Positions 21,626 to 50,223 of a DNA stretch of 64,000 nucleotides are shown here, in pieces (position 1 is the stretch's first letter; the number at the start of each line of letters is the position of its first letter). The DNA is from Sacculina carcini (lineage: Eukaryota; Arthropoda; Thecostraca; Sacculinidae). The stretch is taken from NCBI GenBank assembly GCA_916048095.2, contig OU696573.1, forward strand, positions 4,095,535-4,159,534. The letters are read 5' to 3'. A model generated the notes under the pieces. The model was given only the letters and a program-made list of their open reading frames with translations, was not told the origin of the DNA and searched no databases. A program made the position numbers and the translations under genes.

Positions 21626-21913
21626 CTCAAATGAGTTTCCCGTGCCGAAGTAGATGGGCACAAACGCCAGCCAGATGATGCATGTGGTGTACATAGTGAA
21701 GGCAATGAACTTGGACTCGTTGAAGTTCTCGGGCACTTTACGCGCCTTCACTGCGTAGATGGTGCAGACCACGATCAAAATCATATTGTAGACGAGCGAG
21801 ACGAAAAACGACGAGTCGTTGATGCGACACTTGAGAATCACCTCGTCACGGCTCGGGTAGAAGTACCGGTGTCCGGGCGGCTCCACGAGCAGCCATAACA
21901 GAGTGGCCACCAC
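21626..21913 (-). CDS. mGluR: mGluR exon 7: TM5, ICL3, TM6
   Basis: The acceptor GATCAG precedes GTGGTGGCC; the donor is TTTGAG then GTGCGC. It encodes residues 753-848. The exon has a hydrophobic TM5 segment (SLVYNMILIVVCTIYAVKAR), the short family-C third loop with VPENFNESKFIAFT, and TM6 with MYTTCIIWLAFVPIYFG. These intracellular-loop and TM6 stretches are among the most conserved in mGluRs and couple the receptor to G protein. Both edges are phase 0. No disabling changes are seen. Confidence 0.93.
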
Positions 21914-24463: not shown

Positions 24464-24793
24464 CTGCACGCCAATGAGGAGGCCGGCGATGACAATCTGC
24501 GAGCGAGGACTGATGAAGCTCGGTCTCTTGGCAGAATGTGTGGCCGAATCGAAGATGCGTGAGATACGGTTGGTCTTGGTCAGCAGTGCGCCGTAGATAA
24601 AGGCAAAGCCGAGCCCGACGGCCACACGCTGCAAGGCGCAGGTCAGCGCGGCCGGGCGCGCCAACAGCAGGAAAGTGTTGAGGTAGCAGATGAGGATGCC
24701 AGCCAGCAAGATGTAGCTCAGCTCTCGACCGGATGCTTTCACCAGCGGCGTGCTCTCGTGACGTATGAACACGACAATCACCATTATAGTGAG
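24464..24793 (-). CDS. mGluR: mGluR exon 6: TM2-TM4
   Basis: The acceptor GTTGCAG precedes CTCACTATA; the donor is GTGCAG then GTGGGT. It encodes residues 643-752. The start completes the TM1 end (TIMVIVVFIRH). Then come the first intracellular loop (STPLVKASGRELSY, nearly invariant in mGluRs), TM2, TM3 with the conserved LQRVAVGLGFAFIYGALLTK block, intracellular loop 2 with TNRISRIF, and TM4 (QIVIAGLLIGVQ). Both boundaries are phase 0. The sequence looks fully functional. Confidence 0.94.
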
Positions 24794-25586: not shown

Positions 25587-25784
25587 CAGAATGCCGAGCA
25601 CCGAAATGCAGATTGGCGCAATGGCGAACGGCGAGGTCCAGCTCATGTACTGCACTTGCAGCCGGTAGCAAGAGACACGGTCCTCGTAGGGCCAGCGACC
25701 GGCACCGCAGTCTCTGCACGTGTACTCGTCCTGCATGTACTCGTACGGCTCGCACTTGTCGCAAATCCAACAACACTGGCTGCC
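25587..25784 (-). CDS. mGluR: mGluR exon 5: cysteine-rich domain end and TM1
   Basis: The acceptor GAACAG precedes GGCAGCCAG; the donor is ATTCTG then GTCAGT. It encodes residues 577-642. It holds the second half of the cysteine-rich domain (CCWICDKC, then YEYMQDEYTCRDC, then WPYEDRVSCY), with the cysteine spacing that links the ligand-binding and membrane domains in family C receptors, and TM1 (FAIAPICISVLGIL). Phase 0 at both ends. The acceptor pyrimidine tract is weak. A TG-rich tract lies 135-200 nt upstream on the transcript. Confidence 0.92.
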
Positions 25785-30385: not shown

Positions 30386-30583
30386 CTTCATTTTTTTCAC
30401 TTCGCCTACACCGCACGGCAGAGCGCACACCGACACGGGCAGTGTCGACGATGCTCCGGCGGTTGCGGCGTGTTCCGGAAGCATTTCGTCGTTGTCGACG
30501 CCTGTCGTCAACGACGAAACTGCGCCCCAGTGAACGTCTTCGACCCGCATTGTCAGATTGCCGTCGATCCAACTGCCAATCAC
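30386..30583 (-). CDS. mGluR: mGluR exon 4: ligand-domain end and first cysteine-rich part
   Basis: The acceptor TGTACAG precedes GTGATTGGC; the donor is ATGAAG then GTGGGA. It encodes residues 511-576. It begins IGSWIDGNLTMRVEDVHW, the last strand region of the Venus-flytrap domain. A Ser/Thr/Ala-rich linker follows that is longer than in typical receptors, then PVSVCALPCGVGEVKKMK, the start of the cysteine-rich domain. Phase 0 at both edges. A CA tract on the plus strand (GU in RNA) sits 18 nt upstream of the acceptor. Confidence 0.9.
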
Positions 30584-30600
30584 CTGTACACAACAAATAG

Positions 30601-30601
<1 letters not shown>

Positions 30602-30631
<30 letters not shown>
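30602..30631. repeat. (CA)n near exon 4 acceptor
   Basis: About 30 bp, read as (GU)15 in the receptor pre-mRNA just upstream of exon 4. Confidence 0.9.
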
Positions 30632-30633
<2 letters not shown>

Positions 30634-31008
30634 ACACATATGCGCATTCGCTCAGGTTTGTATCTGCATAGTGACAATCGTTTGTTCGGTAGCAAATTCA
30701 GCTATATGAACAACGTTGCGACGATGCAACATCGACCGTCATGGACGAGTTATGTGCATTTCAACAGTGCGAATATTGACGTGGCTTACCCCGATATTTG
30801 CCTACTGCCTACTTTCCAATTTCACGGTGGATTTTTGTATTAAGCGTTAGTTGAATAGCGGTGTTATTCACGCCTACGGCATGCGCGTGAATATGACATT
30901 GACAAGGGATTTATTGAGCAAATAAAACGGTAATGATTTATTGTTGCATTGATTTCCGAACCACCTGCATTTCGGCTATGAGCGGCGGTGCAGTGTACCA
31001 TCAAGATA

Positions 31009-31048
31009 TGTGTGTGTGTGTGTGTGTATGTGTGTGTGTGTGTGTGTG
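31009..31048. repeat. (TG)n adjoining exon 3 donor
   Basis: About 40 bp with one interruption. It is read as (CA)20 in the pre-mRNA starting 8 nt inside intron 3. Confidence 0.95.
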
Positions 31049-31056
31049 CAATGAAC

Positions 31057-31160
31057 CTTGTAGAGAGGTCCCCCGGTCTCTCTAGGCTGATAGTTGAACA
31101 CTGTGTAGCGAGCCGGCCCATTCCCTCTTTGATCAAACATCACCTCGCTGCCCGACATAC
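31057..31160 (-). CDS. mGluR: mGluR exon 3: short ligand-domain exon
   Basis: The acceptor GGCGTAG precedes GTATGTCGG; the donor is CTACAAG then GTTCAT. At 104 nt it enters in phase 1 and leaves in phase 0. It encodes residues 477-510 and completes Gly476. The protein has SEVMFDQRGNGPARYTVFNY, which matches the conserved mGluR stretch near the end of the second lobe (V-x-F-x-x-x-G-x-x-x-x-RY). Because its length is not a multiple of three, skipping it would shift the frame. Its upstream acceptor has a (GU) tract in place of a pyrimidine tract, and complementary CA repeats follow the donor. Confidence 0.9.
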
Positions 31161-31167
31161 CTACGCC

Positions 31168-31168
<1 letters not shown>

Positions 31169-31229
<61 letters not shown>
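31169..31229. repeat. (CA)n adjoining exon 3 acceptor
   Basis: About 61 bp. In the pre-mRNA it is (GU)30 ending about 8 nt before the exon 3 acceptor. Confidence 0.95.
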
Positions 31230-31230
<1 letters not shown>

Positions 31231-31239
31231 CCGATTTCC

Positions 31240-33570
31240 GAACCACGCATATAATAAATTCACAAATATGATCTGCAGTGCCTTTTCAAGAAACTTTCCG
31301 TTGAAGATTGCTAGATCAGGAAGATTCGAAAATACATCTCCTTACCTGACCGCAGGTTTAATCCAAAGTATTAGAGAAAAGCACAGATTAGCAAGACTCG
31401 CTCACAAGTGGCCGCTCACATACAAGGATAGGTATAAGCAGTATAGAAATAAGTTGACTTCTATTCAAAAAGCCGCTAAGAACGAGTACTACAAGAGTCA
31501 GTTAAAAGATTGTGAAGGTAATCCTAAGAAAACATTGAAGGTGATTAACCAGGTCTTGGGACGTAAAAATGAAAGTAATATACCCATTAATTTAGATGGT
31601 ATTTCGGACAATCAAGCTGCTGATGCATTCAATAGACATTTTGTTAATCTGGTGGATAAAGGTCCCACCGCTAACATCACTTCAAAAAACTCCAATTTCA
31701 GTCAGTATTTAGATCCATCTCCTTTATTTTCCATGTATTTAGTCCCATGCACTGTGAGTGAAATAAAAGGCTACATATTGTCCCTAAAATATAATTCGGC
31801 GGGGTTTGATAAATTAAACGCAAATATCTTAAAATCGGTGGTAAGCTATATAGTACCTCCTTTGGTTCATATAATTAATCTCTCCTTCAGTTGTGGAATA
31901 TTCCCGGACTCTCTGAAAATTGCTAAATCTCTACCACTGCATAAATCGGGGTCAAAAACCTGTATCAATAATTATAGACTAATATCAATTCTCCCAGTGG
32001 TAAGCAAAATATTTGAAAAGGCCATTGCTTACAGATTGATTCATTTCCTTGAAAAAAACAACTTACTCGCGAATTGTCAATTCGGATTTAGAAAAAACAG
32101 GTCCACGCAGTCGGCTCTGCTGCACTTTGCGTCAAAAATTTATTCTGAATTAGACAAATAATCCCACGTGGCATCAGTTTTTATAGATATCTCTAAAGCC
32201 TTCGACTCGCTAGATCACGATATATTACTGTTTAAATTGCAAAAGTATGGATTGAGGGGCCCCCCTCTAGATTTAATGAAAAGTTATTTGGCCGATCGTA
32301 AACGAATGGTATTCTGTAATGATGTATGCTCTCAGTACAGTGTGATCAAGAGCGGAGTGCCACAGGGGTCCATTTTGGGCCCAATTTTGTTCCTAGTGTA
32401 TATAAATGATATACTAAATTCTAGCAATGCCTATTTCACCATGTATGCAGACGATACCAGTTATATTGTTTCCGATCACGACCTACAAAATCTTCACTTG
32501 AAATTGTCCCAAACGTTAGATGATATAAATCTTTGGACATAACATAATAAGCTGAAACTTAATGTTAAAAAAACACATGTCATGTTATTTCAAAACAGGT
32601 CTCTGACACATACTCTGCACACATTAAAACTGGGGAATAATGTTGTTCAGCGGGTTAAGAGCACACACTTTTTAGGTGTCATAATAGATGAATATTTCAA
32701 TTGGAACGAACACATTGCCAGTGTATGTAGGGCATTATCTAGGACAGCAGGTGTCATATACCGTACCAGACGAACTCTGACTACGGAAGCAATGCAAACC
32801 TTGTATTATGCCCTTTGCTATTCCAAATTGATGTACTGCATATCAGTCTGGGGCTGCACATGGCCATCATTTTTAAAATGTATCTTCACTGTTCAGAAAC
32901 GCATCCTGAAACTAATTTTTTTCAAGAAAAGCAGGTATTCCGCTGACGAGATATTCGCCAACCAGAAAATGTTAAAACTTGAGAATGTGCACAAGTATTT
33001 CTTGTATCTTACCATATACAGATCAATGAAAAATAATGATGCCATATTCCAAATTCAAGGACACTCATTAACAACACGTAGAAATAATGTTAATTTGGTA
33101 TGTCCATCCTTCCGAACCAGCCTCTTCAAAAATTCAATATTATACCTTGGTCCTAAACTTTAGAACTGTCTACCGGCTTGCATTAAATCAGCATATACCA
33201 TTATGTCTATAGATACGTTTAAAGCGAAAATTAAACACCACTTGTAAAACCTCCAGGCAAACACAAATTGTACAAATTGTACAATTTGTACAGGCAAACA
33301 AATTTGTACGTTCACAGTATGACTGTATTGTTTGTTTTGTATATATTTTGTTTTTGCATTGTTCTGTTGCATGTTTTGTTTTAGCATATGTTTTGTAGTA
33401 ATGTGTTGCACTGCACAAATCTTGATTAAAAATATTTATTGTCTGTCTAACGAGCCATGGCTTGACAGACTATATTGCCTCTGATGTTTTCGTTATTTTG
33501 TGTTACCTGTGTGATGTTGTTTTTTTGGCAATAAATGATACAATACAATACAATACAATACACACAAGCA
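31240..33570 (+). mobile_element. LINE 1: 5'-truncated Jockey/CR1-type copy
   Basis: A non-LTR retrotransposon missing its endonuclease. It starts after the (CA)n next to exon 3 and ends in a (CAATA)n tail at 33539-33563. It lies in mGluR intron 2 in antisense orientation. The 3' UTR runs from about 33247 to the tail. Confidence 0.85.
31268..33247 (+). pseudogene. LINE 1 reverse transcriptase (two stops)
   Basis: One reading frame with three open segments: 31268-32161, 32162-32542 and 32543-33163, then a further stop and a short tail. The first gives the linker before RT and RT motifs such as YRLISILPVVSKIFE and FGFRKNRST. The second has FIDISKAFDSLDHD, then SGVPQGSILGP and the catalytic YADD at about 32444-32455. 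The third gives the C-terminal region with W-x-C-x-W-type motifs. Only in-frame TAA codons (32159 and 32540, plus 33161 near the end) break it; no frameshift is needed. The motifs fit the Jockey/CR1 supergroup; the exact clade is unresolved. Confidence 0.85.
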
Positions 33571-35201
33571 CACACACACACACACAAACACACAAACACA
33601 CACAGATATAAGTGTGAGCAGCCCTTCACAACGATACATATATGCAAATGTTGTAAGTTGTCGTAGGTGAATTCAAAAATGTGAATCGGTGAAAAGGACA
33701 TTTTCATTTTCTTTTACAGAAACGGGCACCTGATGATTTGGATGAGACCGAAACGTTTCTCAGAGTATAAAACACTAATCTACGAATAAATTGTTATTCT
33801 TTTAAGCCGCCTTGTCCGCTAATCCACCCTACGTTCATCCATATAAACTAACTCAAGTATATTGCTTAGCTAGCTAAAAACTCATAGATGTAGTTTTTTG
33901 GAACGCCTACAAAAAACAAAGAAAATAAGTATCTTAATCAAATCAGAAAGTGTCAGAATAGCCACTAATGGTCAGATTAGCTATTGACACTCGATTATAG
34001 GATTAACTGATTGTATTTTGCATTACTTTATGCGAATCAAGGTGCTGAGTCGCTTCTGGTGCATAAATCGTTGACTTTTGTCTAGACCATCGTTTGCTAA
34101 ACATCAGTGCATTTTAGTTGCACGGACCCTACTGCATTATGATTCTCAGTTTGTTTCTTACATGTAACGTATTTCCCATGACACCTCAGGTGCACGTCCG
34201 TCACCATTCATCATGTAGATAAAGACTACAACTCTGATTGCACGCTTTGCATTCTGATTTGGATGCAACAGCGTACTGCAAGCACGCCAACGAATGCGAT
34301 CTTACAATCCTGGACTTCTATCGTTGTTAGGGTGCGGTTTATCGACTCTCCGATTACATTACAGTAGGATTATCCTAAATTTATATACATATAAGATGCA
34401 CAAAACTTATAAACAAGACATATTTCTATGTAAGCATATTAATTTAATGTTATTAGTATACATACATCGATTTTAACTTAGACAATCATCAGAGTTAGAC
34501 ATTTGCTTGGTCATGTTTGAAGCAAAATATTTCCCAGATATTCTATCGTATTGATTCCAGGTATCTGCAGCGCCTATATCTCTACACCTACAAGAAAAGT
34601 GTGAAATGTTGAAATCGAAGCTGGATTTAGCAAATCGAGCATAAATGACTGAGAGGCAGTTGAAAACCACCTTGATATAGCCAGTGCACTAAGCAGCATG
34701 CTAATGAAATCTTGACGTGAATGCCGGTGAATTGACGCAGTCATAAGTCAACTGAATGCAGTGAAATTACTGACTACTTGTGCTGAAAAACCCGAGCACT
34801 GCTCATTATGGCTCATCTGAGCATAAATGATAGAGCCCAGCGGAATACAAACAAAATATCAAAACAGCGTTTTTCCCGAAAAAGAGCATACGAAAGCAGC
34901 AAATGATGGGCTTGTTAGATGCTTGATGAGCACAGCAAATCAGTTATTTTTGCTCAAATTGTCCAGTTATTATTCATTAACAGAAGTTCCGTCTGGAGTG
35001 ATGTGGAAACATTGGTATCACAAAGCTGATGTTAATGATGACTTGCGAAGAACTGTCGCTCAAGAAGCAATTAATTGAAAATCCACTCTCAGATGTGCTG
35101 CCACAAAAATGTCTTCCAAATATTGCGCTTCATCCCAGGCTTATTTAGAGAGTTTGATCCCCTCACTCAATTTGATCTACTTAAATCGAAATAAGCCTAG
35201 T
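33571..35201. other. mGluR intron 2, no gene
   Basis: A short CA-rich stretch at 33563-33602 follows the LINE tail. Remaining open frames (for example 34827-35078) have no recognisable domain. Confidence 0.4.
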
Positions 35202-35465
35202 ATCTTCGTGGCCGAGTGGCTAGAGCACGCAGTTTGTGCACGAATGACTTGGGATCAAATTCCCTGATGATGTGAAATGGCTCGTCTCGTTTCTCAAAAG
35301 TATAGCTCAATTGCCGCATGGTGGGCTCCGTGTGTGTGCAGCCATACAGTTTCTGTGTTGGCCGTAACTGCAATTATCCGTGTGTGGCGGCCTGACCTGC
35401 GGTGTGCCAGCCGAGGTCGTGAGATTTTGCTCCAACAAAATTACTCGCGAATGGAACCCACAATT
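35202..35465 (+). mobile_element. SINE family A, copy 2
   Basis: The head has the A box TGGCCGAGTGGCTAGAGCAC and a degraded B box GGATCAAATTCCC. The body contains GTGTGGCGGCCTGACCTGCG and ATTACTCGCGAA, matching the 22886 copy with more divergence. Confidence 0.75.
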
Positions 35466-37630
35466 CCGGGCTCAAGTGCATTACAGTATTTCACTACATT
35501 ATATCAAAACACGTACTAAAATGAGAATTGCAATATGCATTGCAAAAATATAAAAACTGCTACAAGTGGGCGCGTAACAAATAACACGTATAACACAATA
35601 AATGGTGATACACATACAAAAATAGCAAAACAGATTCAGAAAGCGAGAGATCTATTAAGAGAGGTATTTGATACCAAACAATGAGATATACAAGCCCGAT
35701 TCATTTCCTATTGAAATTATTCAGAATGTCAACATGAAGTGTGGAAACATCAGACAATATAATATTATATGTGTTCAGATATCAGCGTGTTGATGAGTTT
35801 ATTTGATCCAGGTATGGTTGTGTGGCGTACAACAAGCGCATATAATGCATTAACGAGTTACAGAATCAATATCATTAACAAGGGTGAGATAAGAACATAT
35901 AATAATACCCAAGATTCTTACTGAAGAGTGTAAAAGGAATAGAAGAGTTAAAGTTAGCCGAGGAGGGTCAAAGCTTCTAGTTCAATTTTAGAAACTTGAT
36001 CAGAAAACGGCGACAATCAGTCCATGATTAAATATCAGATACAATATATGGCATAAGGAATGTGTAAGGAAAGCAAGTGGGCATGCATATTGTATGTCCT
36101 TGACATAAACTTGAAAAACTACAAAATAACGACTCAGGACGGAGCACAATTAGGACATACAAGTTATACATGTTTAGTAGGCTGGGACTATGAATTGAGC
36201 CTAAAAGAGTCCCTGAAGGTAACAGAATGTTATCAGAAACAACCAGATCAAATTAACGAAGTAATGTCTACGTGTGAGACAGGAGCGCATAAATGAGAAT
36301 GCCTAGGAAAAATCAAGTAGATCAAGAGCAGAATATGCGAAAAGACCATTGTTGAAGACAAAGAGCCCACTACTTTCTGCAAACTGGATCAATAGTCGTC
36401 ACTACCAAAACTCGTCACGAGACCATTGCAAAAATTTCAACGACAGAACGCATTGGATCAAGTGTGCATTCGTTAAACGTCTGCGTTATGAGAAGTTATC
36501 ATTTGCCTCCGGCGGTAGAGATACGAATACTGCCGCCGTACCCGCTGCGTGTCGTAAGAGCCGACTAAAAGCGGACTCCTATTGTTCTTCCCATCATCTC
36601 CGTGCCACATCCAAAAGAAAGAAATAATCCAGAAAGGTTGGCACCCCCTGGATAACAATCCCTTTCTCTTGTCCTTTCTCGGAATAAATAAACGAATACA
36701 TTATTTCAATGAAAGTGCGCCAGCAAATAGGGCAATAACTTCTAGGAAGCCAAAAATGAGATGCATGAAAAAGAGATGAAAAAGAGGTTAAAAAGAAGTG
36801 AAAAAGATGGAAAGTGCAAATCACTTGAGCGGCATTTTACTCGACTTGATATTGGTCTCACGGAGTTGCGCTTTGATGGCCCTCATGCTCAAGCTTGCCG
36901 TTTCTTACACGCGTATGTGATATTCAAACGACAATTTCACTTGAAAGCGCAAACAGCGTGCAGCAGCTGACATGCTTTGATACCGCTGAGCAGAAAGTAG
37001 TGATGTTGGCGTAATTGCATCGCTGCTTGACCGGCCATTACTCTGATGTTCCAGCCGTAATCACATGTCACGTCGCTTCCGGTCCGACAATTTCGCGCCC
37101 ACTCAAGCGAGGCCGATACATGGTCCGGTTGTCACAAACAGCACGTGTCCATTGTTTAATTTGCATAACATGCTCTATTGATTTGCTTTGTTGAAGCACA
37201 TTCAATTGAAGCCCAAGTGGCAGTCGCATAATGTACCGAATACACACATTCATCGTAATGGAAAAGTATACCTTCAATAATTCCAAATTAATTAACTGTA
37301 AATGCGAATCATTTAAAGTGCTGCCCAAGGCAATATTCCAGGCACATTATGCTGATGTTATGTATGTATGTATGATGTTAAGTGTCATGGACGAAATTTA
37401 TTGTGTACATCTGCCAAAAATGTGCACCAATTTTCTGGTGGCCGAATGTTTCTGTACAGTGGCATGCAACAATCCTTCAACAATGCGACAGACAAATGAT
37501 GGGATTCAGGCGCAAACTCCGCCACGAGATTATGGATAGACGCTCATAGACTTTTTAACCTTGATTATTATGAAATTAATGACCATTTGATCTAATGTTA
37601 TTATTTATATTTATTGTCTTGGATTTACAA
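35466..37630. other. mGluR intron 2, no gene
   Basis: Nothing recognised. Open frames of 60-100 codons lack domain signatures. Confidence 0.4.
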
Positions 37631-37631
37631 T

Positions 37632-38495
37632 ACACCGTAAAACCTTTATTTGAACGATACCTCTATTTAAACGGCACCCCTAATAGAACGGCGCCTTGGG
37701 GTAACAAGTGAAAAATAGAACGCCACCCTCTAATTGAATGGCACATCTAATAAAACGTCACTTCAATGAATTATTCTCTTTTGTCAATAGCTATGATTGA
37801 CTGGATTTTATTAGTGAATTTCTGGTTAGTTGGCAGAAATAACCTGTATTTGTGTTTTTGTTAAATAAAAATACTTACGTTACCTGGTTTTTATCCATAA
37901 AATTTACTGTATATTCTCAAAGTTCTCACCTCATATAATTTCAACTATAATATGAACTGCCATTTTGGAATAGTCGAAAAATAGACTAGAAACATCTAAT
38001 TGAACGCCACCTCTAATTGAACGCTACTACGGGGGAAGGTTTAAAATAGAGGTTTAGGGTATACACCGTAAAACCAATATTTGAACGGCATGTCGTTCTA
38101 ATGAAACCTTCCTTCGTATTGACGTTCAATCAGAAAGTACCGCTATATATTTCGACTAGCTGGTCAGCATCTTGATAAGATATGGTACATTTTATGGATG
38201 AAAACATAACCATGTTACGTATGCATATATATTTCACCAGACACCAATACAGCGTGATTATTGGTAATTAATCACAAGTAATTAACAGTAAGTAATTACT
38301 GGTAAGTAATCACAAATTGACTGATAATAATCAGCATGTCATACGAATTGCCCAAAGAAAAGAATCCAAGTGAAGGTTGATCAGAGGTGACGTTCAATTA
38401 AAGGGTGCCGTTCTAATTTTCAAATGTTCCCTCAAGATGCTGTTCTATTAGGGGTGCAGTTAACATAGATTCCATTCAAATAGAGGTTTTACTCT
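37632..38495. mobile_element. Two Tigger-like MITEs joined as an imperfect palindrome
   Basis: The first copy starts CACCGTAAAACCTTTATTTG and ends at about 38060 with GAGGTTTAGGGTATA. The second starts at once with CACCGTAAAACCAATATTTG and ends near 38490 with AAATAGAGGTTTTAC. Their interiors are inverted relative to each other: TTTTATCCATAAAATTTACTG in the first against ACATTTTATGGATG in the second. Both have TA at their edges. Non-coding. Confidence 0.65.
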
Positions 38496-38792
38496 TTGCG
38501 GTACATAGATAGAGCGTGTGGGTGCATGTGCAGAAAAATAGTAATTTGAAAGCCCAAACATACTTGAAATGAAAATAAAACAACAACAACAACAACAACG
38601 TATATTTATACCGCATATAAACAACACACGCGCGAGCCAAGCAAAAAAATGAGACACGTCGATGACGGGGGGCGTGGTCGCAGCATCTACACAAATATGC
38701 GACATGTATAATTACACAAGCTAAGCAAGTAAACGATGAAAGCGATGAGATAGTTTAAATAATATCACCAAAAGGGATGAGACAATAGAGAA

Positions 38793-41637
38793 TTATAGTT
38801 CGGCATAAGGCGTCAGAGAGTGGGTGACAGGTTCAAATGATAAGGAGAATATGTATTTGCGTAGGGAAGATGTGAATGAAGCGTAGGAAGAAGAAATATG
38901 GATGTGAGCGGAGAGCGAGTTGTAGAAGCGAGGTGCGAAGAAAGAGAAGGAATTTGCCGACCAGCAAGATTCATTTATAGCTCGAGGGCAGTTTAGAGGG
39001 CGAGTGATACGAGGAGACAAGTGTAAGGACTGAGAAAGAAGGCGAACTGGATTATGAGGCTGGCCTATACCATATAATAATTTGATAATAATGCAGGCAA
39101 TCATGTGGTGTACACGTGGAATGATGGGTAGCCAGCGGAATTGATAAAGATATTGAGAAGTGTGACGACAAGGAAGAGGAGACAACACACATCTACAGGA
39201 TTGATTAAGGACCGATTGGAGAACTTTTAAGAACCAGCGAGGAGTGTTGAAATGAAGAGAAATACAGTAGTCAATGCTGGGAAATATAAGAGATTTTATC
39301 AACTTGATCCCAGACGCCTGGTCCAGAAATGGGCGAATGGATTAGAGAGCAAGGAGGATTAGTCGACAGGAGCGAACAACTGAGTAAATATTATTTACAA
39401 AATTAGGAGATGAATAAAAAAATGACACCCAAATTGCGCATAGAAGAACGTAAAGGAAAAAGGAGGACAGGAGGAGTGAGCCGTGGTGGGTGGAATACCA
39501 TGAATTCTGTCTCGGGTGAATTTAGTAAAAGACGATGAGACGCGGCGCATGATGAAATGTCAGAAAATAATGAATAAATAAAAGAAATATCGGGTGACGA
39601 CAGTGGACAAATCAGCTGAATGTCGTCAGCGTAAATATGGAAAGTCACAGGATAGGGAGACAAAACAGAAAATATAGATTACATATAAAATTTGAAGAGA
39701 ATGTGTCCTAAGATGGAGCCCATCAGATACCTTAGAGTTGAATTTAACAGAATATGATCTGTCTGATAGAAGATAGCTCATAAGTGAAAGAGCCGTAGAA
39801 GTAAGACCAATATGGGATAAGTCCAGAGCCGTAGCAACCGCCCCCCGTACCCCCCGGCCGGGGGGGGCCGAGTGTTGAGGGGCCCCGCTTCCGCTCCGCT
39901 TGCTTAACGTATGACATTAAAATTTATCATATTATGTATAGCTTTTACCTTTTTGTTCAGATGTTTTCACCTGAGCTTGTATTATGTGATTATGTATAAT
40001 AACTAAATTCATTATTTGATGGTTTATTTATAATGGGGCCCCAAGTGTTGCCTTAGGGGGGCCCCAAGTGTTGCCTTCGGAGGCCCCAAGTGTTGCCTTC
40101 GGGGTGGCCTCATAAGTCCTCGCAACGGCTCTGGATAAGCCATCAAGTACGATATCATGAGGCGCCAGATCGAACGCTGAGGACATATCCATCATGGCTA
40201 TTAACAAGGAATTTCGATATGAGAACTGAGAAAACACGCTGTCGGTGACATAGTTAAGGACACTTTCTGTCGAATGAGAAGGTCCGAAACCGGACTGATG
40301 AGGACGCAAAGCAGTGTAGATGATTGGATAGATCTGTGAGAAGATTACAGATTCCAGTAGATTAAAAGTGAGGCTGATTATAGAAATAGGACGATAATTT
40401 TTTTGCACAAGGAAGGATCTATTGTAGGCTTTCTCAATATGGGATAAAATTTAGTGTGTTTATCAGGAACAAACTTTCCATGGAGTAATTATAGATTAAT
40501 TATTTGCAAAAAGTAAGGAGCAAACAGGTCTACGGAGTGAGCGATGGGTATATAGTTGATAGGATCTGCAGGGGAAAAGCAAGTTTTGACCGAGGAGAGA
40601 AGAGATAGAATATCAGAGAGGTCAACAAGATCGAAGGATGACATGTCAGATGAAAAAAAACAGATTGATTTACAATACAATTTGAAGGAGGAATGTTTGC
40701 GTGTGTAGATTTGACTTTGTCCACAAAAAACAAGCCCAGCTCAGAGGCAGTGATGCAGCAGCTTGTGGAAGGTGGATGACGACCCGAATCGAGTATCGAG
40801 TGTCGAGTATCGAGTGTGGACCATAGACATTTTTGAGATTTAGGTAAAGAAGCGAGTTTATAATTATAATAGGAGTGCTTAGCAGCAGAAAGTGCAGTTG
40901 GATAGGTTGTGCGGGCTGTACAAAAACGGACCATTCAGCAGCAGAGCGAGTGTGACGCCAAACTTTTTCAGATCGCCGCTGAGAACGTTTGAGTTGAGTC
41001 AGCTCAACATTGAGCCACGGAGCTTGCAAGTGTGCGCGGGGCCGAGTCACCAATGGGAAAAAAAAATTAATTTCCGAAAGGCCGTGATTAAAGTGTGAGT
41101 ATACTTGAGATGGACATAGTGAGTGAAACATATAAAGAAAAAGGCGAGATGTTAAACAGGAGAAAAGTAGGTCTAGGTTGAGGTTTTTGTAGGATCTGAA
41201 TGTGATCAGTGCGCGATCAGGAGGGTTGCACCGGAAAGAGAGGCTGAAAAGACATTGACTGTGGTCGGAAAATGTATTGTCAGGAGGGATAACTTCAATT
41301 TCCGGAATAGCAAGGTCGGTGGAAAGAACAGGGCTAGGAAATAGAATAAGATCATAAGTATGAGCTGAAAGATGGGTGGGAGAAGATATTGGCGAACAAA
41401 GAGCAAGAGAGTCAATAAGTGGTATAAAACGAGGGCAATACGGATCAGAAGAAAGGTTATCGACCCAAAATTGAAATCGCCAGCAATAAAGTATCTGTTT
41501 GAGAAAAATTGATTGACAGATTCTATAAGAGCGGGGAATTTATCGAAGAAGGAGGAAATAGAGCCAGGATGGTTATGACGGTAGATGACTATTATACAAA
41601 ATTTTGGTAAGGAAGGAAGATACAATGACATAGCGAT
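38793..41637 (-). pseudogene. LINE 2 endonuclease-reverse transcriptase remnants
   Basis: Fragments in several frames, in order: endonuclease end (FCIIVIYRHNHPG and FIAGDFNFGS, 41206-41637), a linker (40530-41131), RT start (YRPISIISLTFNLLESVIF, with an SGFGPSHSTES block and MDMSSAFDLAPHD, up to 40408), RT core (FHIYADDIQLI at about 39630), and a C-terminal part (38793-39302). Active-site YADD is kept, but frames are broken in at least four places. The YRPxHPG and SGFRxxHSTE motifs fit CR1/L2-like elements. Not functional. Confidence 0.8.
39824..40133. mobile_element. hAT MITE family 1, copy 4, nested in LINE 2
   Basis: It begins CAGAGCCGTAGCAACC and ends CGCAACGGCTCTG. Flanks GATAAGTC (39816-39823) and GATAAGCC (40134-40141) match at 7 of 8. 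It is very close in sequence to the 21111 copy, with three tandem GGCCCCAAGTGTTGCC units near the right end. The LINE reading resumes on the other side, so the MITE came later. Confidence 0.9.
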
Positions 41638-41930
41638 GAGCTCGAAGCTCAAGCAAGCTCTGTGCACGAAATGTCCAGGGTTCGATTCCCTGGCGAGGTG
41701 AAACGGATAGGTTCGTTTCTTAAAGTGATAGCCCAATTGCACCAAGGCGGGTTTCGTGTGCGCGCAGCCGTACAGTTTTCTGTGCTAGCCGTGACTGCGA
41801 TAAGCTGTGTGTGGCGGCCGGACCTGCGGTGTGCCAGCCGGGGCTGTGAGGCTTTGCCCCGCAAAATTACACGCGAACACAGCCTTCTCTACTGCTGTGT
41901 TCAAATGCGTAATTATAATTATATATACTC
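41638..41930 (+). mobile_element. SINE family A, copy 3
   Basis: The B box GGTTCGATTCCC and the following GGCGAGGTGAAACGG are intact; the A box region is degraded. The body ends ACACGCGAACACAGCC then GTTCAAATGCGTAATTAT. It sits between LINE 2 and the Gypsy fragment and seems to have truncated one or both. Confidence 0.75.
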
Positions 41931-41949
41931 ACTGTTCCTGACTGGTACT

Positions 41950-44231
41950 CAGTTCCTGATATTCAGTCGTTTGCTGATCAACTCTGTGGAGCCAAAATGG
42001 TCAGCACGGTGGACCTACCACGTGCGTTTGCTCAAGTACCGCTCCACAAGGACACCCAGGAGAAAACTGCGATAACCACACCCTTCGGACTAAATCAGTA
42101 CAAGCGGATGCCATTTGGTCTGTGTAACGCGGAGCAGACATTCCAGCGCCTCATGGGCACGGTACTGAGGGGCAAGCCGCGTGTTTTTGCCACCTGGACG
42201 ATGTCCTGGCTTATTCGCCAGATGTTGAGACTCACCGCCAGGACCTCAAGGAGCTGTTCCGCCGTCTCACAGCAGCTGGGTTGGTCATCAAGCCTGAGAA
42301 GTGTGTTTTTGGTGTACCAAGAGTGCGTTAAGTTGGCTTCCGGGTCTCGGAACACGGCATCGAACCTCTTCTCGACAAAATTGCAGACATGAGCAACATG
42401 TCTGCACCCGCCAATTCCAAGGACTGCAAGAGATTTCTGTGCATGGTGAACTTTTCCACCGATTAATTCCTGGACTGGCCCGACTCCTCAAGCCGTTTCA
42501 TAACGTGGCGAACCTCAAACGAGATTTCGTATGGGGTTCTCAACAGGCGGCCGCTTGGCAGTGGGAGCAGTGGTTCTGCAGTTACAAGACGGTCACTGGG
42601 TGCCTCTGGCATTTCACTCAAAAAGGCCACTGATGCTGAGCTCCAGTGGTCCACTGGTGACAAAGAGTTGTACGCCCTCTTCAGTGCCGCGAAGAGGTTC
42701 CGCCACCTCCTCGAAGGTCGCGCCGATCTACAGCTGTGGACCGACCACAAACCACTGGTATACTCGTTCACCAGCACCACTAAACGTTCATCCCGTGTGC
42801 AGAGACAACTTGCCTACCTGAGCGAGCTCTCGACAGATGTTCGGCAAATAAATGGGTCAGAGAACGCTGTGTCAGACGGCCTGAGCAGACCACCGACTAG
42901 AACACTTCACGTCTCGCAACTTACCGCAGACTCACAGAGCTCACTGGACGTCAAACGCTTGGCCCAGGCACAGCAAAGTGCACCAGATGTGGTTGAGCTG
43001 GCTTCCTGTCCGTCATTACGCGTCCTTAGACGCCCGGTTGATGGAGTTCCGTCTGGTCTGCTGGTAGATGCGTCCATCGGTATCGATCGCCCGCAACTTC
43101 CGGAGTGCCTGCAGCACGAGGTTTATCTGATGATACGCCACTTAAATCACCCGAGTACTAGGGTCACCAGGCGTTTGATATCGGAGCGTTATGTCTTCAA
43201 GCGCATTTGGGCGAAAGTGTCGTCGTGGGCGAAATCTTGCGTCCGCTGCCAGCAGTGTAAAGTATCCCGGCATCAACACACCGCTCTGCGCAGACCTCCG
43301 ACGCCCAGTGGACGCTTCGAGGCCCTTCATGTCAATATCGTCAGTCCTCTTCCTCCTATAAATGGCTACCAGTACCTTTTTACGATCTTAGATTGGTTCA
43401 CAAGATGCCCCGAAGCGGTACCTATGCCAGACGCCACCGCTGCATCGTGTGTACGAGCCCTGCTCGACTGGGTTTCCCGGCTTGGTTTGTGTCTGTGTAT
43501 GACATCAGATCGTGGGAGGCAGTTCGTATCGGATGTCTGGAAAGAGCTTTGGTCGGTGCTGGGTGTCAAGCTGGCGAACACTTGTGCGTTCATGCCGCAG
43601 CAAAAACGGTCTGGTTGAACTACTTCATCGGTAGCTGAAGTTGTCTCTTTATGCTGCTCTGATGGACAACACCACCTGGCTCACCGCGTTGCCTGTTGTA
43701 TTGATGGGCCTTTGCTCTGCTTTCAAGCCCGACATTGGCTCCTCGTCAGCAGAGTTGGTTTTTGGGGAGAAGATGCGGTTGCCCGGTCAGTTCATTTCGC
43801 AAACTGTTTCCGATCGTCCGGTATGTGAATTCGCCACTCAACTGGCCACTGCCTTCAAGCGACTTCAACCGACTCCGACTGCGTGGCATCGTCGCTACGA
43901 CACTACATCTCCGTTCGTGTTACAGTTACTGGCCACTGCCACACACGTTTTCGTCCGCATTGATGCTCACCGGCCGCCATTGACTCCGCCATATCGCGGA
44001 CCATTTGCTGTACTGGAGCTCGGTGATAAATCGTTTGTTCTGGATTTCGGAGGCACTACCTATAGTGTAGCCATTGATTGTCTCAAGCCGGCGTTTCTGA
44101 TGCGAGAGGATCAGTCTGACCCGAACAACAACCTGTCTCCATCAGAAGATCGCCCTTTCAGTCAACCAGCTCACCAGACTGAGTCAGTTCCTTCCACTAT
44201 CAGATCAAGTCAGCCACCGCGAATCGTGTAG
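41950..44231 (+). pseudogene. pol: Gypsy Pol fragment (RT-RH-IN)
   Basis: RT motifs STVDLPRAF, MPFGLCNAEQTFQR and, after a frameshift near 42190, the LDD active site are present. RNase H ends with WTDHKPLVY (about 42738). The integrase zinc finger (HLNHPS... CVRCQQC, 43140-43255) and core follow. The first catalytic aspartate is changed: the family's D is N in LHVNIVSPLP, at about 43330. Several stops and frame changes, including a TGA at 43616, confirm it is dead. The tail from 43641 to 44231 is in another frame and carries the PYRGPF motif typical of the C-terminal integrase domain. Confidence 0.85.
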
Positions 44232-44306
44232 TCTCGCCGCGCTAGAACTGTTAGTCCTCCCGGTCGTTTTTCATAAATCGGTACTGTGAAGTACCTGGAG
44301 GGGAGC

Positions 44307-44579
44307 TGTAGTCGGCGGGTCACTTTTGACCCACCTAAACTAATTATGTATATTCTATATAACTATGATCTTGTACTTGTATTTCATCAATTCCCTAAAT
44401 TGTATCATTTTATGTTAATTGTGCTTGTTATATTGTATTATGATGTGTAATTGTATAATGTGGTTGTTAAATTGGATTGTTAGTGACACAACACACATCC
44501 GTTCTGCCCGTTGCCCGTAGCTTGCTTTCTGAGGCCGTTTGCCTGTGGTTTTTACTGTTGTGGGCGTTCCTACACTACA
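44307..44579 (+). repeat. 3' LTR of Gypsy fragment
   Basis: It starts TGTAGTCGGCGGG directly after the purine tract and is taken to end at CACTACA, giving TGTAGT/ACTACA short inverted termini. The end is inferred because no second LTR exists for comparison. Confidence 0.6.
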
Positions 44580-44703
44580 AAAGATATAGTTGATAATTTT
44601 TTGACTACGTACGGCGCATCAAAACATTTATTCTGTGTTTGTATAGATATTATCAGCATTTTTTCATATCTATTCAGAGATAATCCAGAAAATTGGCTAC
44701 AAT
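44580..44703. other. mGluR intron 2 between LTR elements
   Basis: No feature seen. CAATC at 44704-44708 is the left target duplication of the next element. Confidence 0.6.
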
Positions 44704-44708
44704 CAATC

Positions 44709-45016
44709 TGTAATAAACGCACAGACGCTCAACTCGCACAGCACAGTATCTCCTCCAACCGTCAAACCACAAACACGACTCTCCGCTCACACCGTGACAC
44801 ACACACACACGCACACACACAAAGCCTCACCCGCCGCAGCAACCAATCAGCAGCGAGCCGGTCACTCGCCGCCGCCGCGGGCATGAACAATTCACGGCGT
44901 GTCAGTCATACTAGTACATACATACATACATACAAACATAGTACACAACAGGAGCACAAACGCGAATCACACACACACACACACACACACTAACACTCCA
45001 TGCACATAACACTACA
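44709..45016 (-). repeat. 3' LTR of young element
   Basis: 308 bp. I find no difference from 49004-49311. It contains CA-rich stretches and a CATA tetranucleotide run. On the element strand it starts TGTAGTG and ends TTATTACA. Confidence 0.93.
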
Positions 45017-45212
45017 TGCACACCTGGCTTCAAGAGCCAACTAAACGTATAAATCTACAAGATGCGGTAAAGTGGAAACGCTGCACAGAAAAACATGCGG
45101 TAAAGTGGAAACGCCATTGTATGACGAATGACAATAACAATGACGAATGCGTATCGACTGAACACGCACTCACACATGCATACTCACACGCACTCACACA
45201 ATAGCATGAACA
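45017..45212 (-). other. 3' untranslated region of young element
   Basis: About 196 bp between the Pol stop and the 3' LTR. A 20-nt direct repeat (ATGCGGTAAAGTGGAAACGC) occurs twice at about 45060 and 45099. No purine run adjoins the LTR. Confidence 0.75.
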
Positions 45213-48200
45213 TCAATATTGAAATAATTGACGCGGCGCAGGATTGGCCCGTAATAAACGCACAGCAGAGCGACTAGGCAAGTCATTCGGTTGTTCATTC
45301 ATCCGCACCGGTTCAACAACTCTTTCAGGCTGAACTGCAGCAGGCGGAACTGTCACGAGAGCCGGACGACGTTCTTCTTCCTGCTGCTGCTGCTGCTGCA
45401 CACCAGGCGGCACACTGACAGCCACGCGTCGATTGCACGGCCTCAGACTTCTCACGTGACGAGGCACTCCGTCGACTTCGACGCTGAGCTGAGAGGTCAC
45501 ACCAGTCACAGTGCCGATGTGTGACCTGGTGTGACAACTTGCACCTCGCTGCCGAACCCACACAACATCTCCAAGCTTGAACTTGCAGCGCACAGAAGCG
45601 TTGTTAACTTGAGCGTTGCCAGAATGTGGCGGCGTCGGGATTGGCCGCGACCGCACGCGATATTTATATATCTGCATGGCAGGCGCGGAACTGTCTGTGC
45701 GGCTGTCCTTTGGAGTCATTTTGTACCAATGTACAGCTTCCGATACAGAGCAGTTCGACCTAGCAGCGATTGTTTTGATGGTGCGATGGCTGCGCTCAGC
45801 GATGGCATTTCCAGTGGGCTCATATGCGCACCGAAAAATCAAATTGACACCCCATTTTTCGAGCATGCTTCTGAAAGCAGCGCTGCGAAACACAGTTGCG
45901 TTATCGGCCAGAACTTCCGCTGGTGGACCGCGCTCATAAAAAATGTTCTCCAATTGCATGATGACATTCACACTGTCTTGCTGTCTCAGGTGACGCCACA
46001 GTGAGAATCGCGACGGGCCACAGTCGATCACAGTGAGGTAATGGTGAAGCCCTGCGTGCGTCACGTCGATGGCCAGACGATGCCAGTTGCGCTTTACGTG
46101 CAACTTGCCTGCTGCCCACCGCACAGGAGCAGGATCAACTGACTGGCATGCATCACAATTTCTCACCACCGTTTGGGCCATCCTTCTGCTCACACACGGG
46201 TCTTTCTTCTTCGAGAAATACAGTGTTCGCCTCACACCAGGGTGACCAGAGGCCTCATGCACGGCTCGCACGACAGCGAGAGGATCATGCGGTGAAGTAC
46301 ACGGTGCTGTCGCTGCTGCTGCCACTGACACGGCTGCATTAGGTTGCTTTCTCAGCCAGGCGGTGGGCACACGAGTCAGCTGGTCCGCCAGATTGCAACT
46401 TGAGCTGACGAATGCGACGTTAACGTCCAACTGGTACTCTGCCACCAGAGACGTGAGAACAGACAACCTCCTGCGAATAAGCATTTCACTGCCGGCTTTT
46501 GTTTGAAGCCTCGATTGCCCACTCAATGCGTTGCTAATCCAGTGGAAGACTGTGCGGGAATCAGTAACTAGACGGAATTTTTTCAGCTTCCAAATAAGCG
46601 CCAGGTTCACACCTTTGACAGCAGCATCGAGTTCCGCCATATTAATATGAGCCGCATCCTCAGTGCGCAACCAGCATCCGTCTTCGATCACTGACCCGCC
46701 GATCTCCAATACCGCACCCATGGCCAATGAACTAGCATCGGTCCAAACAGTGGCGTCTCCATCAACTACATCCCAGCGTCCAGTTGCAGGATCAGCATCT
46801 TTCACACGGGCCAATATTTCCTCCAGCATTTTGCGGACTTCTCCACCATCACGCAGCTTGTCATCCCAGCTTGCAGTTGCAGCATTTGCTCGACGCTTGA
46901 TGTATGCTGCCGCCACACGCAACCAGCCACACACTGGCATGTGCCCTGTCAGTTTGCCACAAACTGAAAACACGTTCCGCCGTGTGAGAACATCCGGTAT
47001 GTCACCAACACAGTTGTCACGGCGCCAACGCAGATGACGACCATGGCTGTCCACTCTGACACCAAGGACACCAGCGCCGTCTCGCAGTCGCTCGGGAGCT
47101 TTGCACACGAGGCCGTATTTTTCCAGGTGTGCAACCACCTTGTCCACACCAACGACATTCGCGTTCACAAGCACATCGTCGATGTAGGAAGACGTACCCT
47201 GAAACACGGTCGGGTCCTGTTTCAACACAGTCTCCAGTACGGCTTGCATCACCAATGGGGCGACATTGAGACCGAATCCGAGTCTAGTGAGACAAAAACG
47301 GCGGCCCTCGAAATTGACGGTTTGAAAAGGCCACAAGTCGGAGCTCACGGCGATTTGCAAGTAAGCCTTCCTCAAATCGATCAACACCGCACTGCCTCCA
47401 ACACGTCTCCACAGGCGAATTTTGTCGGCACAAACGTCACTGTTGGCAGTGAATGGATTTATGAAGTCATTGAGCTCTCTGAAGTCAAGGACTGGCCTGG
47501 TTTTTTGCTTATTATTTTGAACGACAGCCATTAGGGGAATTAACGCTTTCGCAGGTCCGTGCTCTCGTTCATCATATCGTTGCAGCCAGCCACGCTTGAT
47601 CCAGTCCAATACTTCTCTACGGTATTCCATTCGAACACTGGGCTTCATGGCGTATTCACGAACTTTGTTTTTTAGAGCACCTGGTGGCCGTCCGTCCGCC
47701 CATTTCCACGCAGCTGTCCACTGTTTCTTGTCAGCACTGAACTTTGCTGTAAAGTCTTGTCGTTCAATGACAAGGTCGGTCAGTTTACCCGGCATTCCAC
47801 CAGAAGCATCAGCCGCTCCAGCCGTGTACTGAGTTCCTGCTGTAGCGTCACAATGCACACCAAGTCTCACATTACCCTCGCCACTGATGCACACACCACC
47901 GTAGGACGATACGCCATTCATACCCAACACAAATTCAAAATTCAACGGTTTGAAGCTGACAACCATGGCTTCAACAAATTTTGGTGAATGAGCAGCACTT
48001 TGTAAGCATACCATTGTCCTGCCAAGACTCCTATGCTTGGTGCCGTCTACAGTTACAATAGTGCAAACATATGGTTCCCATGAACCACAACACGATTGAT
48101 GAATTATGCACTTGGAACAGCCTGAGTCGACGAGTACAGATTTCTCACAATCATTTACTCGCATGAGTGTCGTGGGTAACGCGTCATTGGCAAACGAGAA

Positions 48201-48245
48201 GACGCCGACGCTCACGCGTCTTCTCGCTGTCCGTTTCCCGAACAT
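45213..48245 (-). CDS. pol: Pol polyprotein of young element
   Basis: 1010 codons open from the frameshift region. Aspartic protease VDSGCS is at residues 39-44. RT follows, with a catalytic Asp in LIDLRKAY (about 290) and YIDD at 354-357. RNase H has TDASS (Asp503), MAELD (Glu539), TDSR (Asp562) and NLADQL (Asp621). Integrase has a HEASGHPG...CDAC zinc finger (663-700) and the DDE triad at about Asp727, Asp781 and Glu817. A short Gln run lies near the C-terminus (CTG repeat near 45380). All catalytic residues are in place and there is no stop. It is probably made only by -1 frameshifting from Gag; the ATG at its start is incidental. It would copy and integrate element RNA. Confidence 0.93.
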   Translation of the reverse strand: MFGKRTARRRVSVGVFSFANDALPTTLMRVNDCEKSVLVDSGCSKCIIHQSCCGSWEPYVCTIVTVDGTKHRSLGRTMVCLQSAAHSPKFVEAMVVSFKPLNFEFVLGMNGVSSYGGVCISGEGNVRLGVHCDATAGTQYTAGAADASGGMPGKLTDLVIERQDFTAKFSADKKQWTAAWKWADGRPPGALKNKVREYAMKPSVRMEYRREVLDWIKRGWLQRYDEREHGPAKALIPLMAVVQNNKQKTRPVLDFRELNDFINPFTANSDVCADKIRLWRRVGGSAVLIDLRKAYLQIAVSSDLWPFQTVNFEGRRFCLTRLGFGLNVAPLVMQAVLETVLKQDPTVFQGTSSYIDDVLVNANVVGVDKVVAHLEKYGLVCKAPERLRDGAGVLGVRVDSHGRHLRWRRDNCVGDIPDVLTRRNVFSVCGKLTGHMPVCGWLRVAAAYIKRRANAATASWDDKLRDGGEVRKMLEEILARVKDADPATGRWDVVDGDATVWTDASSLAMGAVLEIGGSVIEDGCWLRTEDAAHINMAELDAAVKGVNLALIWKLKKFRLVTDSRTVFHWISNALSGQSRLQTKAGSEMLIRRRLSVLTSLVAEYQLDVNVAFVSSSCNLADQLTRVPTAWLRKQPNAAVSVAAAATAPCTSPHDPLAVVRAVHEASGHPGVRRTLYFSKKKDPCVSRRMAQTVVRNCDACQSVDPAPVRWAAGKLHVKRNWHRLAIDVTHAGLHHYLTVIDCGPSRFSLWRHLRQQDSVNVIMQLENIFYERGPPAEVLADNATVFRSAAFRSMLEKWGVNLIFRCAYEPTGNAIAERSHRTIKTIAARSNCSVSEAVHWYKMTPKDSRTDSSAPAMQIYKYRVRSRPIPTPPHSGNAQVNNASVRCKFKLGDVVWVRQRGASCHTRSHIGTVTGVTSQLSVEVDGVPRHVRSLRPCNRRVAVSVPPGVQQQQQQEEERRPALVTVPPAAVQPERVVEPVRMNEQPNDLPSRSAVRLLRANPAPRQLFQY
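48181..48239 (-). promoter_or_regulatory. -1 ribosomal frameshift signal
   Basis: The heptamer GGGAAAC (48239-48233) lies in the gag frame as G GGA AAC. After a 6-nt spacer an 11-bp perfect stem forms between 48226-48216 and 48205-48195, with a 10-nt loop that contains the gag stop codon. Loop bases GCGTC can pair with GACGC at 48185-48181, giving a possible H-type pseudoknot. Pol is in the -1 frame. Confidence 0.9.
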
Positions 48246-48988
48246 TGTGCAGCAAAATGTCCTTTAACGCCACATTTAAAGCAGTAAACATTTCTCGGCT
48301 TATGACGGCTATTATAACGCGTATTTGACTTGTGGCTTTTCTCACTCAACTGATTGCACGTTTGTGCGCATTTGAATGACTGTTCTTTGGTGGCATTGAC
48401 ACAGGAACAACTGCCACAATGGCGGTCACTCGTCACTGAGGTGGAACAAGACATACCTGCAATGGCGGCCTCTTCGTCAGCCAATATTCCGCGAGCGCTC
48501 TCCACCAGCTGAGACACGGTCATTTCTGATATTCGAGCGTTGGCACGGAGTGTTCGACGCACGTAGTCGGGCAGACCGTGGACGAAAGCGCTGTTTATCG
48601 CTGCTTCCTGCAGTCCACCAGCGAGCTGAGCGAGTCGTTTTATATCCGCAAGATACGCGTCAACCGGTTCTCTAGACTGTAGCCGACGCGTCACCAGCTG
48701 ATCATAAGCAGAAAAAGAATCGACCTCGAACGCCTTCACCAACGCTCGCTGAACTTGATCCACATCAAGTTTGCTTTGATCCGAAAGCTGGTCATACACT
48801 CGGTATGCATTTCCTGTGAGTCGAAGTGGGATGACGGCAGCAACAAACGAAACGTTGTACAATCTGCATATCCAATGCAACTTGCTGAACCATTCAGACA
48901 CGGAGCAATCATCATTGCCTCTGAACTCCGGAATAAGTTTGATGTCAAACGCCATCGCACCAGGAGCAACACTCTCAGACTTGGACAT
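48212..48988 (-). CDS. gag: Gag of young element
   Basis: 258 residues from the ATG at 48988, which begins MSKSESVAPG only 15 nt after the 5' LTR. The frame stays open back into the LTR (ATG at 49060), so initiation inside the LTR cannot be excluded. A helix-rich capsid-like region with WFSKLHWICRLY and a run around LADIKRLAQLAGG is followed by one CCHC zinc knuckle, CFKCGVKGHFAAQC, close to the C-terminus. Gag would assemble the particle and bind element RNA. The stop overlaps the frameshift stem-loop, and Pol continues in the -1 frame. Confidence 0.9.
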   Translation of the reverse strand: MSKSESVAPGAMAFDIKLIPEFRGNDDCSVSEWFSKLHWICRLYNVSFVAAVIPLRLTGNAYRVYDQLSDQSKLDVDQVQRALVKAFEVDSFSAYDQLVTRRLQSREPVDAYLADIKRLAQLAGGLQEAAINSAFVHGLPDYVRRTLRANARISEMTVSQLVESARGILADEEAAIAGMSCSTSVTSDRHCGSCSCVNATKEQSFKCAQTCNQLSEKSHKSNTRYNSRHKPRNVYCFKCGVKGHFAAQCSGNGQREDA

Positions 48989-49003
48989 TATGCCGAAATA
49001 GCT

Positions 49004-49311
49004 TGTAATAAACGCACAGACGCTCAACTCGCACAGCACAGTATCTCCTCCAACCGTCAAACCACAAACACGACTCTCCGCTCACACCGTGACACACACA
49101 CACACGCACACACACAAAGCCTCACCCGCCGCAGCAACCAATCAGCAGCGAGCCGGTCACTCGCCGCCGCCGCGGGCATGAACAATTCACGGCGTGTCAG
49201 TCATACTAGTACATACATACATACATACAAACATAGTACACAACAGGAGCACAAACGCGAATCACACACACACACACACACACACTAACACTCCATGCAC
49301 ATAACACTACA
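49004..49311 (-). repeat. 5' LTR of young element
   Basis: 308 bp, apparently identical to 44709-45016. It should carry the element promoter; no clear TATA box was picked out. Confidence 0.93.
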
Positions 49312-49316
49312 CAATC

Positions 49317-50223
49317 TACATCATAACACACTATATATCGGAGTTATTTTTCATTGATCACCGTTTTTCTATTTTTTTACGAAATTTTCATGCAAGCTGC
49401 TATGACTGATATTACTGCTGGAACTATCCAACGAATTCGAAGGTAGCGTGTGGAAAATACCATCCTGACATATTATGAATTCCGACGAGACAAATATCAC
49501 TGATGATTAAATTAAAAAAGATGATTCATAGAGCAGGATTTACTGGCACTTATTGAGAAATTTTAAGCGCTCTATTTTATCGCAATTTATGCGAGTTTTA
49601 GCGTGTATTTTCTTATTTTCGGCGCCGCAAACGATCATTCTGTTTATGATTTATTTTGTCTTTGCACTTCATTTAATATAATTACAGAACTTATCATTGT
49701 CGATCAGGTCAAGCTGAGAGGCGGGCACAATAGAACAAAAACCAAAATTGAATGTTTTCCCAATGAAACTCAATAATTTCAATTGCAAATAAGAGAAAAA
49801 CAATTATGTAGCCATGTGCAAAATTAGCTCCAATATTTTGGGCAATGTAGGTGTTTTGTTGACAATTTCAATTGCAGGTACGTAATGCACACTCACGGAT
49901 TGCAAATTTTCTATTGCAGTTTCCATGAAGTGGAAAATCTAGATCACCTCTGTGTTTATAAGGAAATAAGACTGACTCTGTTAAAATATGTCTGTGACTG
50001 CTAGAAATGATATTTCTCCACAAAATAACCAGATATTGTGTGTGTAGGAAAGCAGCAGTGATCTGTTTCAGATCATCACCAGGCAATTCCCATTGAATAT
50101 ACGTAAAACTGGAACAGCGATATTGTTTCACAATGCTGAAATCGTCTTCCTAGAAATTGTTTGTTAGTGCATTTGCAATAGTCAATTATCAACACACACC
50201 CTGTCGGCAAGCCACTGTGTTAC
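49317..50223. other. mGluR intron 2, 5' part
   Basis: AT-rich, with no gene or recognised repeat. Confidence 0.5.

Follow-up and report, generated by a model that had tools for sequence, protein, structure and literature searches.

Fish introns of the (AC)m-(GT)n type have no polypyrimidine tract, and in CFTR a T tract lies between the UG repeat and the AG. The source study on the structured (AC)m-(GT)n introns of fish and lamprey is said to be that of Lin et al. 2016 (Genome Res 26:12-23); the action of hnRNP L on CA-repeat intronic splicing enhancers was reportedly described by Hui et al. (2003, 2005), and the relation between the CFTR (TG)m tract and exon 9 skipping reportedly by Buratti (2004) and Hefferon (2004). 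The literature describes (AC)m-(GT)n structured introns in fish and lamprey (PMC9198270, PMC7404189), intronic splicing enhancers made of CA repeats and bound by hnRNP L (PMC3940906, PMC7708053), a (TG)m tract in CFTR intron 8 with TDP-43-driven skipping of exon 9 (PMC12276007), and exons flanked by inverted repeats that give rise to circular RNA (PMC7324948).

The locus considered here lies in a stretch of 64,000 nucleotides of Sacculina carcini DNA, analysed as a whole and called the window below, and belongs to a gene on the minus strand coding for a metabotropic glutamate receptor (mGluR), whose closest relative among solved structures is mGluR3; the ligand-binding and NCD3G domains are present, as is a 7tm_3 domain. 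Seven coding exons were placed, the 3' exons being traced to exon 7; exons 1-7, when joined, are open over 848 codons, and joined exons 5-7 match the Pfam family 7tm_3 in one stretch (profile positions 1-220 of 251). The exons, the two introns of interest and the repeat tracts at their ends are the following.

55111..55949, minus strand: mGluR coding exon 1, 839 nt, placed by frame and splice continuity and by homology
50224..50810, minus strand: mGluR coding exon 2, 587 nt, placed by frame and splice continuity and by homology
31161..50223, minus strand: mGluR intron 2, 19,063 nt, holding reading frames that look retroelement-like by eye
31169..31229, minus strand: (GU)30 tract at the 3' end of intron 2, separated from exon 3 by 8 nt
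31057..31160, minus strand: mGluR coding exon 3, 104 nt, peptide ...GMSGSEVMFDQRGNGPARYTVFNYQPRETGGPLYK, placed by splice-site and frame continuity and by mGluR3 homology across both junctions
30584..31056, minus strand: mGluR intron 3, 473 nt, starting with (CA) and ending with (GU)
31009..31048, minus strand: (CA)20 tract with one interruption, beginning 8 nt past exon 3
30602..30631, minus strand: (GU)15 tract at the 3' end of intron 3, separated from exon 4 by 18 nt
30386..30583, minus strand: mGluR coding exon 4, 198 nt, placed by frame and splice continuity and by homology
25587..25784, minus strand: mGluR coding exon 5, 198 nt, placed by frame and splice continuity and by homology
24464..24793, minus strand: mGluR coding exon 6, transmembrane part, 330 nt, placed by the open joined frame and by Pfam 7tm_3
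21626..21913, minus strand: mGluR coding exon 7, 288 nt, placed by the open joined frame and by Pfam 7tm_3

Exon 3, which is entered in phase 1 and left in phase 0, codes in frame for a receptor segment that can be aligned with the mGluR3 of solved structures. An earlier note on this DNA had described a (GU)30 and a (CA)20 tract, each at 8 nt from a 104-nt exon, and had held that skipping of this exon would shift the frame and that the two tracts are complementary; reading of the minus strand together with homology bears out the layout, the joined-exon reading confirms the frame shift (with exon 3 left out the first stop falls in exon 7), and the complementarity is found again on folding, as given further below. 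The TG/GU run (31229-31169) consists of 30.5 units at 100% purity, the CA run (31048-31009) of 20 units with 94% matches (TRF), and the inverted arms 31009-31048 and 31170-31209 are 98% complementary. The exon 3 donor, AAG/GTTCAT, is weak. The same note had passed over the (GU)15 tract with which intron 3 ends; in this intron CA starts from +9 of the donor and GU stops 18 nt short of exon 4. The CA tract therefore has two candidate partners, as it could reach over the exon to GU30 or over its own intron to GU15. On the transcript strand of intron 2, which has GU before its acceptor but no CA at its donor, there is no AC array of at least 20 nt, so that by this measure (GU)30 is without a partner in its own intron.

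Some other elements were observed in the vicinity of the gene. A 14-nt perfect direct repeat (GATTTCCGAACCAC), with copies at 30951-30964 and 31233-31246 (282 bp apart), flanks exon 3 together with both tracts; a reverse-transcriptase frame of the non-LTR (LINE) type, interrupted by stops and recognised by eye, adjoins (GU)30 at 31250-33163 on the plus strand, i.e. antisense in intron 2; and a tRNA gene (Rfam match) is found at 51311-51381 on the minus strand inside intron 1.

GT and AC arrays are extremely abundant in this genome. Searching its 264 Mb (43 contigs) with a GT pattern of 38 nt yields 270,587 matches in forward and 265,461 in reverse orientation, overlapping positions counted, and 17 random stretches of 10 kb hold 85 GT/AC arrays of at least 20 nt, that is 0.5 per kb or a mean of 5 per 10 kb. 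The arrays are strongly clumped, with 14, 12 and 27 per 10 kb in the stretches L012, L018 and L023 and zero in six of the 17; array neighbours at most 300 bp apart in the 17 stretches stand in the GT-AC order in five cases and in the AC-GT order in eight, and share one direction in 32. Given this abundance, a complementary pair at exon spacing is not rare in itself. Within the window, two pairs of short AC arrays of the same length and spacing (44797-44990 and 49092-49285) surround an LTR-retrotransposon-like frame (45213-49081, minus strand) and resemble parts of two LTRs, so that a mobile element may spread AC arrays; a 142-bp tandem repeat in three copies is present at 12914-13347.

Further genes were sought by a coding-score search of the 17 random stretches, the printed peptides being judged by eye; many of the strong matches looked retroelement-like. 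Three genes whose identities were confirmed by comparison could be used beside mGluR: PMCA in L023, PLOD (lysyl hydroxylase) in L025, and an Ig-domain gene; with Pfam, the PLOD peptide gave just a sub-threshold match to Anp1. Homology across the junctions supports the joined PMCA exons e1-e4, PLOD exons p1-p3 and the mGluR exons, and the PMCA e4 donor and the Ig splice sites were placed by frame and consensus and not by a homologous junction. A TatD-like first exon (no Pfam match for its peptide), a Fem-1-like last exon and a histone H3 were recognised by eye only and were left out of the counts, the TatD-like donor having an unmatched search probe, the Fem-1-like exon reaching the end of its stretch and H3 showing no intron; the TatD-like donor flank shows no tract, and its inclusion would bring the donors with CA to 5/17.

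The earlier note had suggested that the layout could be a length-dependent switch for expression of the receptor. The layout recurs: PMCA exon e3 is separated by 3 nt from an upstream GT tract, and an AC tract begins within ~10 nt past it, and PLOD p1 has GT at its acceptor and AC after its donor, for which reason the reading as a unique switch was set aside. AC also follows the donors of PMCA e4 and PLOD p3, the acceptors of PMCA e1 and e2 are GT-rich, the middle PLOD exon p2 has GT after its donor, and the Ig-domain gene has a GT run ~14 nt upstream of one of its three exons and no AC run at either of the two donors placed. What stands of the earlier proposal is the sequence, the spacing, the complementarity and the frame shift, whereas a receptor-specific switch is not supported: with GU at the acceptor and CA at the donor, three of 15 exons (mGluR exon 3, PMCA e3 and PLOD p1) are framed, against 2.05 expected if the two sides are independent.

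The counts cover 16 acceptors and 16 donors assigned from genomic sequence in the four genes. A site was counted when a run of at least 8 nt lay inside its 60-nt flank, and expected values were taken from non-exonic 60-mers of the same loci, so that local richness in arrays is allowed for; the p values are uncorrected. GT runs occur at 7 of the 16 acceptors (1.42 expected, p about 1e-4) and AC runs at 5 of the 16 donors (1.30 expected, p 0.004), compared with AC runs at a single acceptor (1.31 expected) and GT runs at three donors, those of mGluR exon 2, PMCA e2 and PLOD p2 (1.32 expected, p 0.13). Exclusion of mGluR exon 3 leaves GT at 6/15 acceptors (p 0.0007) and AC at 4/15 donors (p 0.027), and with run cut-offs of 12 and 16 nt the acceptor p is at most 0.0007 and the donor p 0.001-0.05. 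The genes are not a random set, L023 (27 arrays) having been examined first because it is array-rich, L025 having 8 arrays and three of the four genes sitting in stretches above the mean density of 5 per 10 kb; the null is density-matched. The tight placement of tracts at splice sites exceeds the local background. Pairs, on the other hand, are no commoner than independent placement predicts, either around exons or within introns, where 1/11 (mGluR intron 3) has AC and GT within 60 nt of its ends and about 1.5 would be obtained by the same product; the intron between Ig exons x2 and x3 lies outside the 11 counted. Nothing in this sample of 16 + 16 sites calls for pairing, and each splice site seems to get its own tract.

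A polypyrimidine tract is absent from the last 40 nt of all 16 acceptors. The longest pyrimidine run there is of 2-6 nt, with a mean of 3.1 against 4.0 at 2,400 random AG sites (p 0.017); it measures 2 nt before mGluR exon 3 and 4 nt before exon 4. The nine acceptors without a repeat tract have T 0.34, G 0.27 and C 0.16, i.e. both T and G above C. As for the donors, scored with a donor matrix and compared in strength post hoc, after the data had been seen, the four lowest-scoring of the 16 (GTTCAT, GTGCTT, GTAGCT and GTGCTC) are all followed by a CA tract; a G at +5 is present in 1/5 CA donors versus 9/11 others (Fisher p 0.036), and the strongest of all 16 is itself a CA donor, PLOD p3 (CAG/GTGAGG). 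A scan of the edges of 101 arrays, which takes no account of gene annotation and misses weak donors, gave donor scores of at least 3 beside AC in 2/101 and beside GT in 4/101, hence no excess of good donors beside AC arrays. Donors differ greatly in this genome (GTTCAT, GTGCTT, GTAGCT), as was noticed on L023 and L025, and the 16 acceptors placed are without runs of pyrimidines; this lineage may have an unusual consensus at its splice sites.

In this small sample the layout itself, its recurrence, the enrichment over local background, the lack of polypyrimidine tracts and the association of CA with weak donors are what is observed. The explanation we favour, tentatively and at somewhat less than an even chance, is that the two tracts act locally and separately, one per splice site, as part of a habit that this genome shows more widely. 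The GU tract would replace the missing polypyrimidine tract before the acceptor, where it would be recognised by U2AF or else by a UG-binding protein such as those of the CELF and TDP-43 types; just past the donor, the CA tract would be an intronic enhancer of a weak 5' splice site, in the manner of hnRNP L on mammalian CA repeats; exon 3 would be mostly included, repeat length tuning the efficiency. The binding proteins, the direction of the effect and any dependence on length are what we infer here, and the proteins of the CELF/TDP-43 and hnRNP L types put forward in the earlier note are reasonable candidates.

Given 32 splice sites, the main rival to local action is neutral slippage with a strand-dependent tolerance. 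The tracts would be ordinary microsatellites of a repeat-rich genome for which no function is required: GT would grow by slippage from TG-rich acceptors and be tolerated there, AC would be tolerated after donors, and the reverse orientations would be weeded out, since GT beside a donor creates decoy donors and AC beside an acceptor takes away U. The great number and the clumping of the arrays agree with it, as do the nine tract-free acceptors, in which T and G already exceed C, and the tally of orientations, which taken alone (12 GT-acceptor or AC-donor cases to 4 of the opposite kind, binomial p 0.077) is not significant. It has nonetheless to face an excess over the locus-matched background that is about five-fold at acceptors and four-fold at donors, opposite orientations that are near background (1 against 1.31 and 3 against 1.32) and not depleted, and an association of CA with weak donors that it does not predict; we regard it as somewhat unlikely, and still as a serious contender.

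Two other explanations rest on pairing and depend on how the transcript folds. In a folded RNA of 820 nt, GU30:CA20 reaches 39.99 expected pairs with a duplex of -78.1 kcal/mol, and CA20:GU15 only about 8e-11; intron 3 folded by itself closes on CA20:GU15, with a duplex of -57.9 kcal/mol. The model favours, as equilibrium fold, a duplex of ~40 bp enclosing exon 3, which wins over the pair within intron 3. This predicted exon-enclosing duplex, containing the CA tract, is not needed by local action and counts against it.

The first of these explanations takes up the mechanism of fish: CA20 would pair with GU15, join the ends of the 473-nt intron 3 and replace U2AF2. Both tracts are in place in that intron, which closes on them when folded alone, a polypyrimidine tract is missing, and the mechanism is described for fish (PMC9198270, PMC7404189). 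The calculated preference of the CA tract for GU30 in the longer RNA argues against it, as do the scarcity of introns with both tracts within 60 nt of their ends (1/11), on account of which bridging was dropped as a general rule over introns, and mGluR intron 2, which has GU without CA at its donor. For intron 3 we consider it distinctly improbable.

According to the second, proposed in the earlier note, pairing of GU30 with CA20 would hide the splice sites of exon 3 and lead to skipping in a length-dependent manner, or to a circular RNA of 104 nt. On energy grounds looping of exon 3 or a circular RNA is possible: the exon-enclosing duplex is the predicted equilibrium fold (~40 pairs), its arms are transcribed close together, and skipping would lead to a premature stop. 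Exon 3 encodes, however, an in-frame part of the receptor, PMCA e3 and PLOD p1 are framed in the same way, about as often as chance combination would give, and 104 nt is short for a circular RNA made of a single exon. Back-splicing is favoured by flanking inverted repeats (PMC7324948); in U2AF1, exon inclusion was unaltered on deleting or swapping long inverted repeats (PMC5224494). Altogether this proposal appears very unlikely.

Local action at single sites could be extended to a lineage in which the polypyrimidine tract has largely been lost and a splice code of microsatellites is used instead, so that in many genes acceptors would be marked by UG arrays and weak donors rescued by CA arrays; we think this unlikely in so general a form, and it is of interest for what it would entail. 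Dinucleotide repeats are among the fastest-changing DNA, and if they carry splice information the efficiency of splicing would be tied to microsatellite length; mutation of repeat length would then tune splicing across much of the transcriptome, complementary arrays would supply default RNA duplexes around exons and introns, and natural length variants could serve as a test. A narrow literature search gave, among the matches listed, no report of this layout in an invertebrate.

When compared with the known systems, mGluR exon 3 is similar to the exons of circular RNAs in having complementary flanks of ~40 bp around a single exon, but the flanks are dinucleotide repeats and not Alu-like elements, and the exon is short. 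With CFTR it shares a long UG tract just upstream of an acceptor, whose length could alter exon inclusion; unlike in CFTR, UG here reaches to 8 nt from the exon, there is CA past the donor and other genes show the pattern too. The likeness to the hnRNP L enhancers consists in an intronic CA repeat, placed here directly past the donor and beside a weak donor in 4/5 cases. The closest described layout known to us is that of the fish AC/GT introns, which mGluR intron 3 resembles in having AC at its 5' end, GT at its 3' end and no polypyrimidine tract; it fits this intron and not the other ten of the 11 sampled, none of which carries both tracts, and in intron 3 itself, unlike in fish, a stronger exon-enclosing pair is predicted to compete. 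Splice information carried by such repeats in many genes, if real, would extend the story of the fish AC/GT introns to another genome, separating the local help given to each splice site from pairing.
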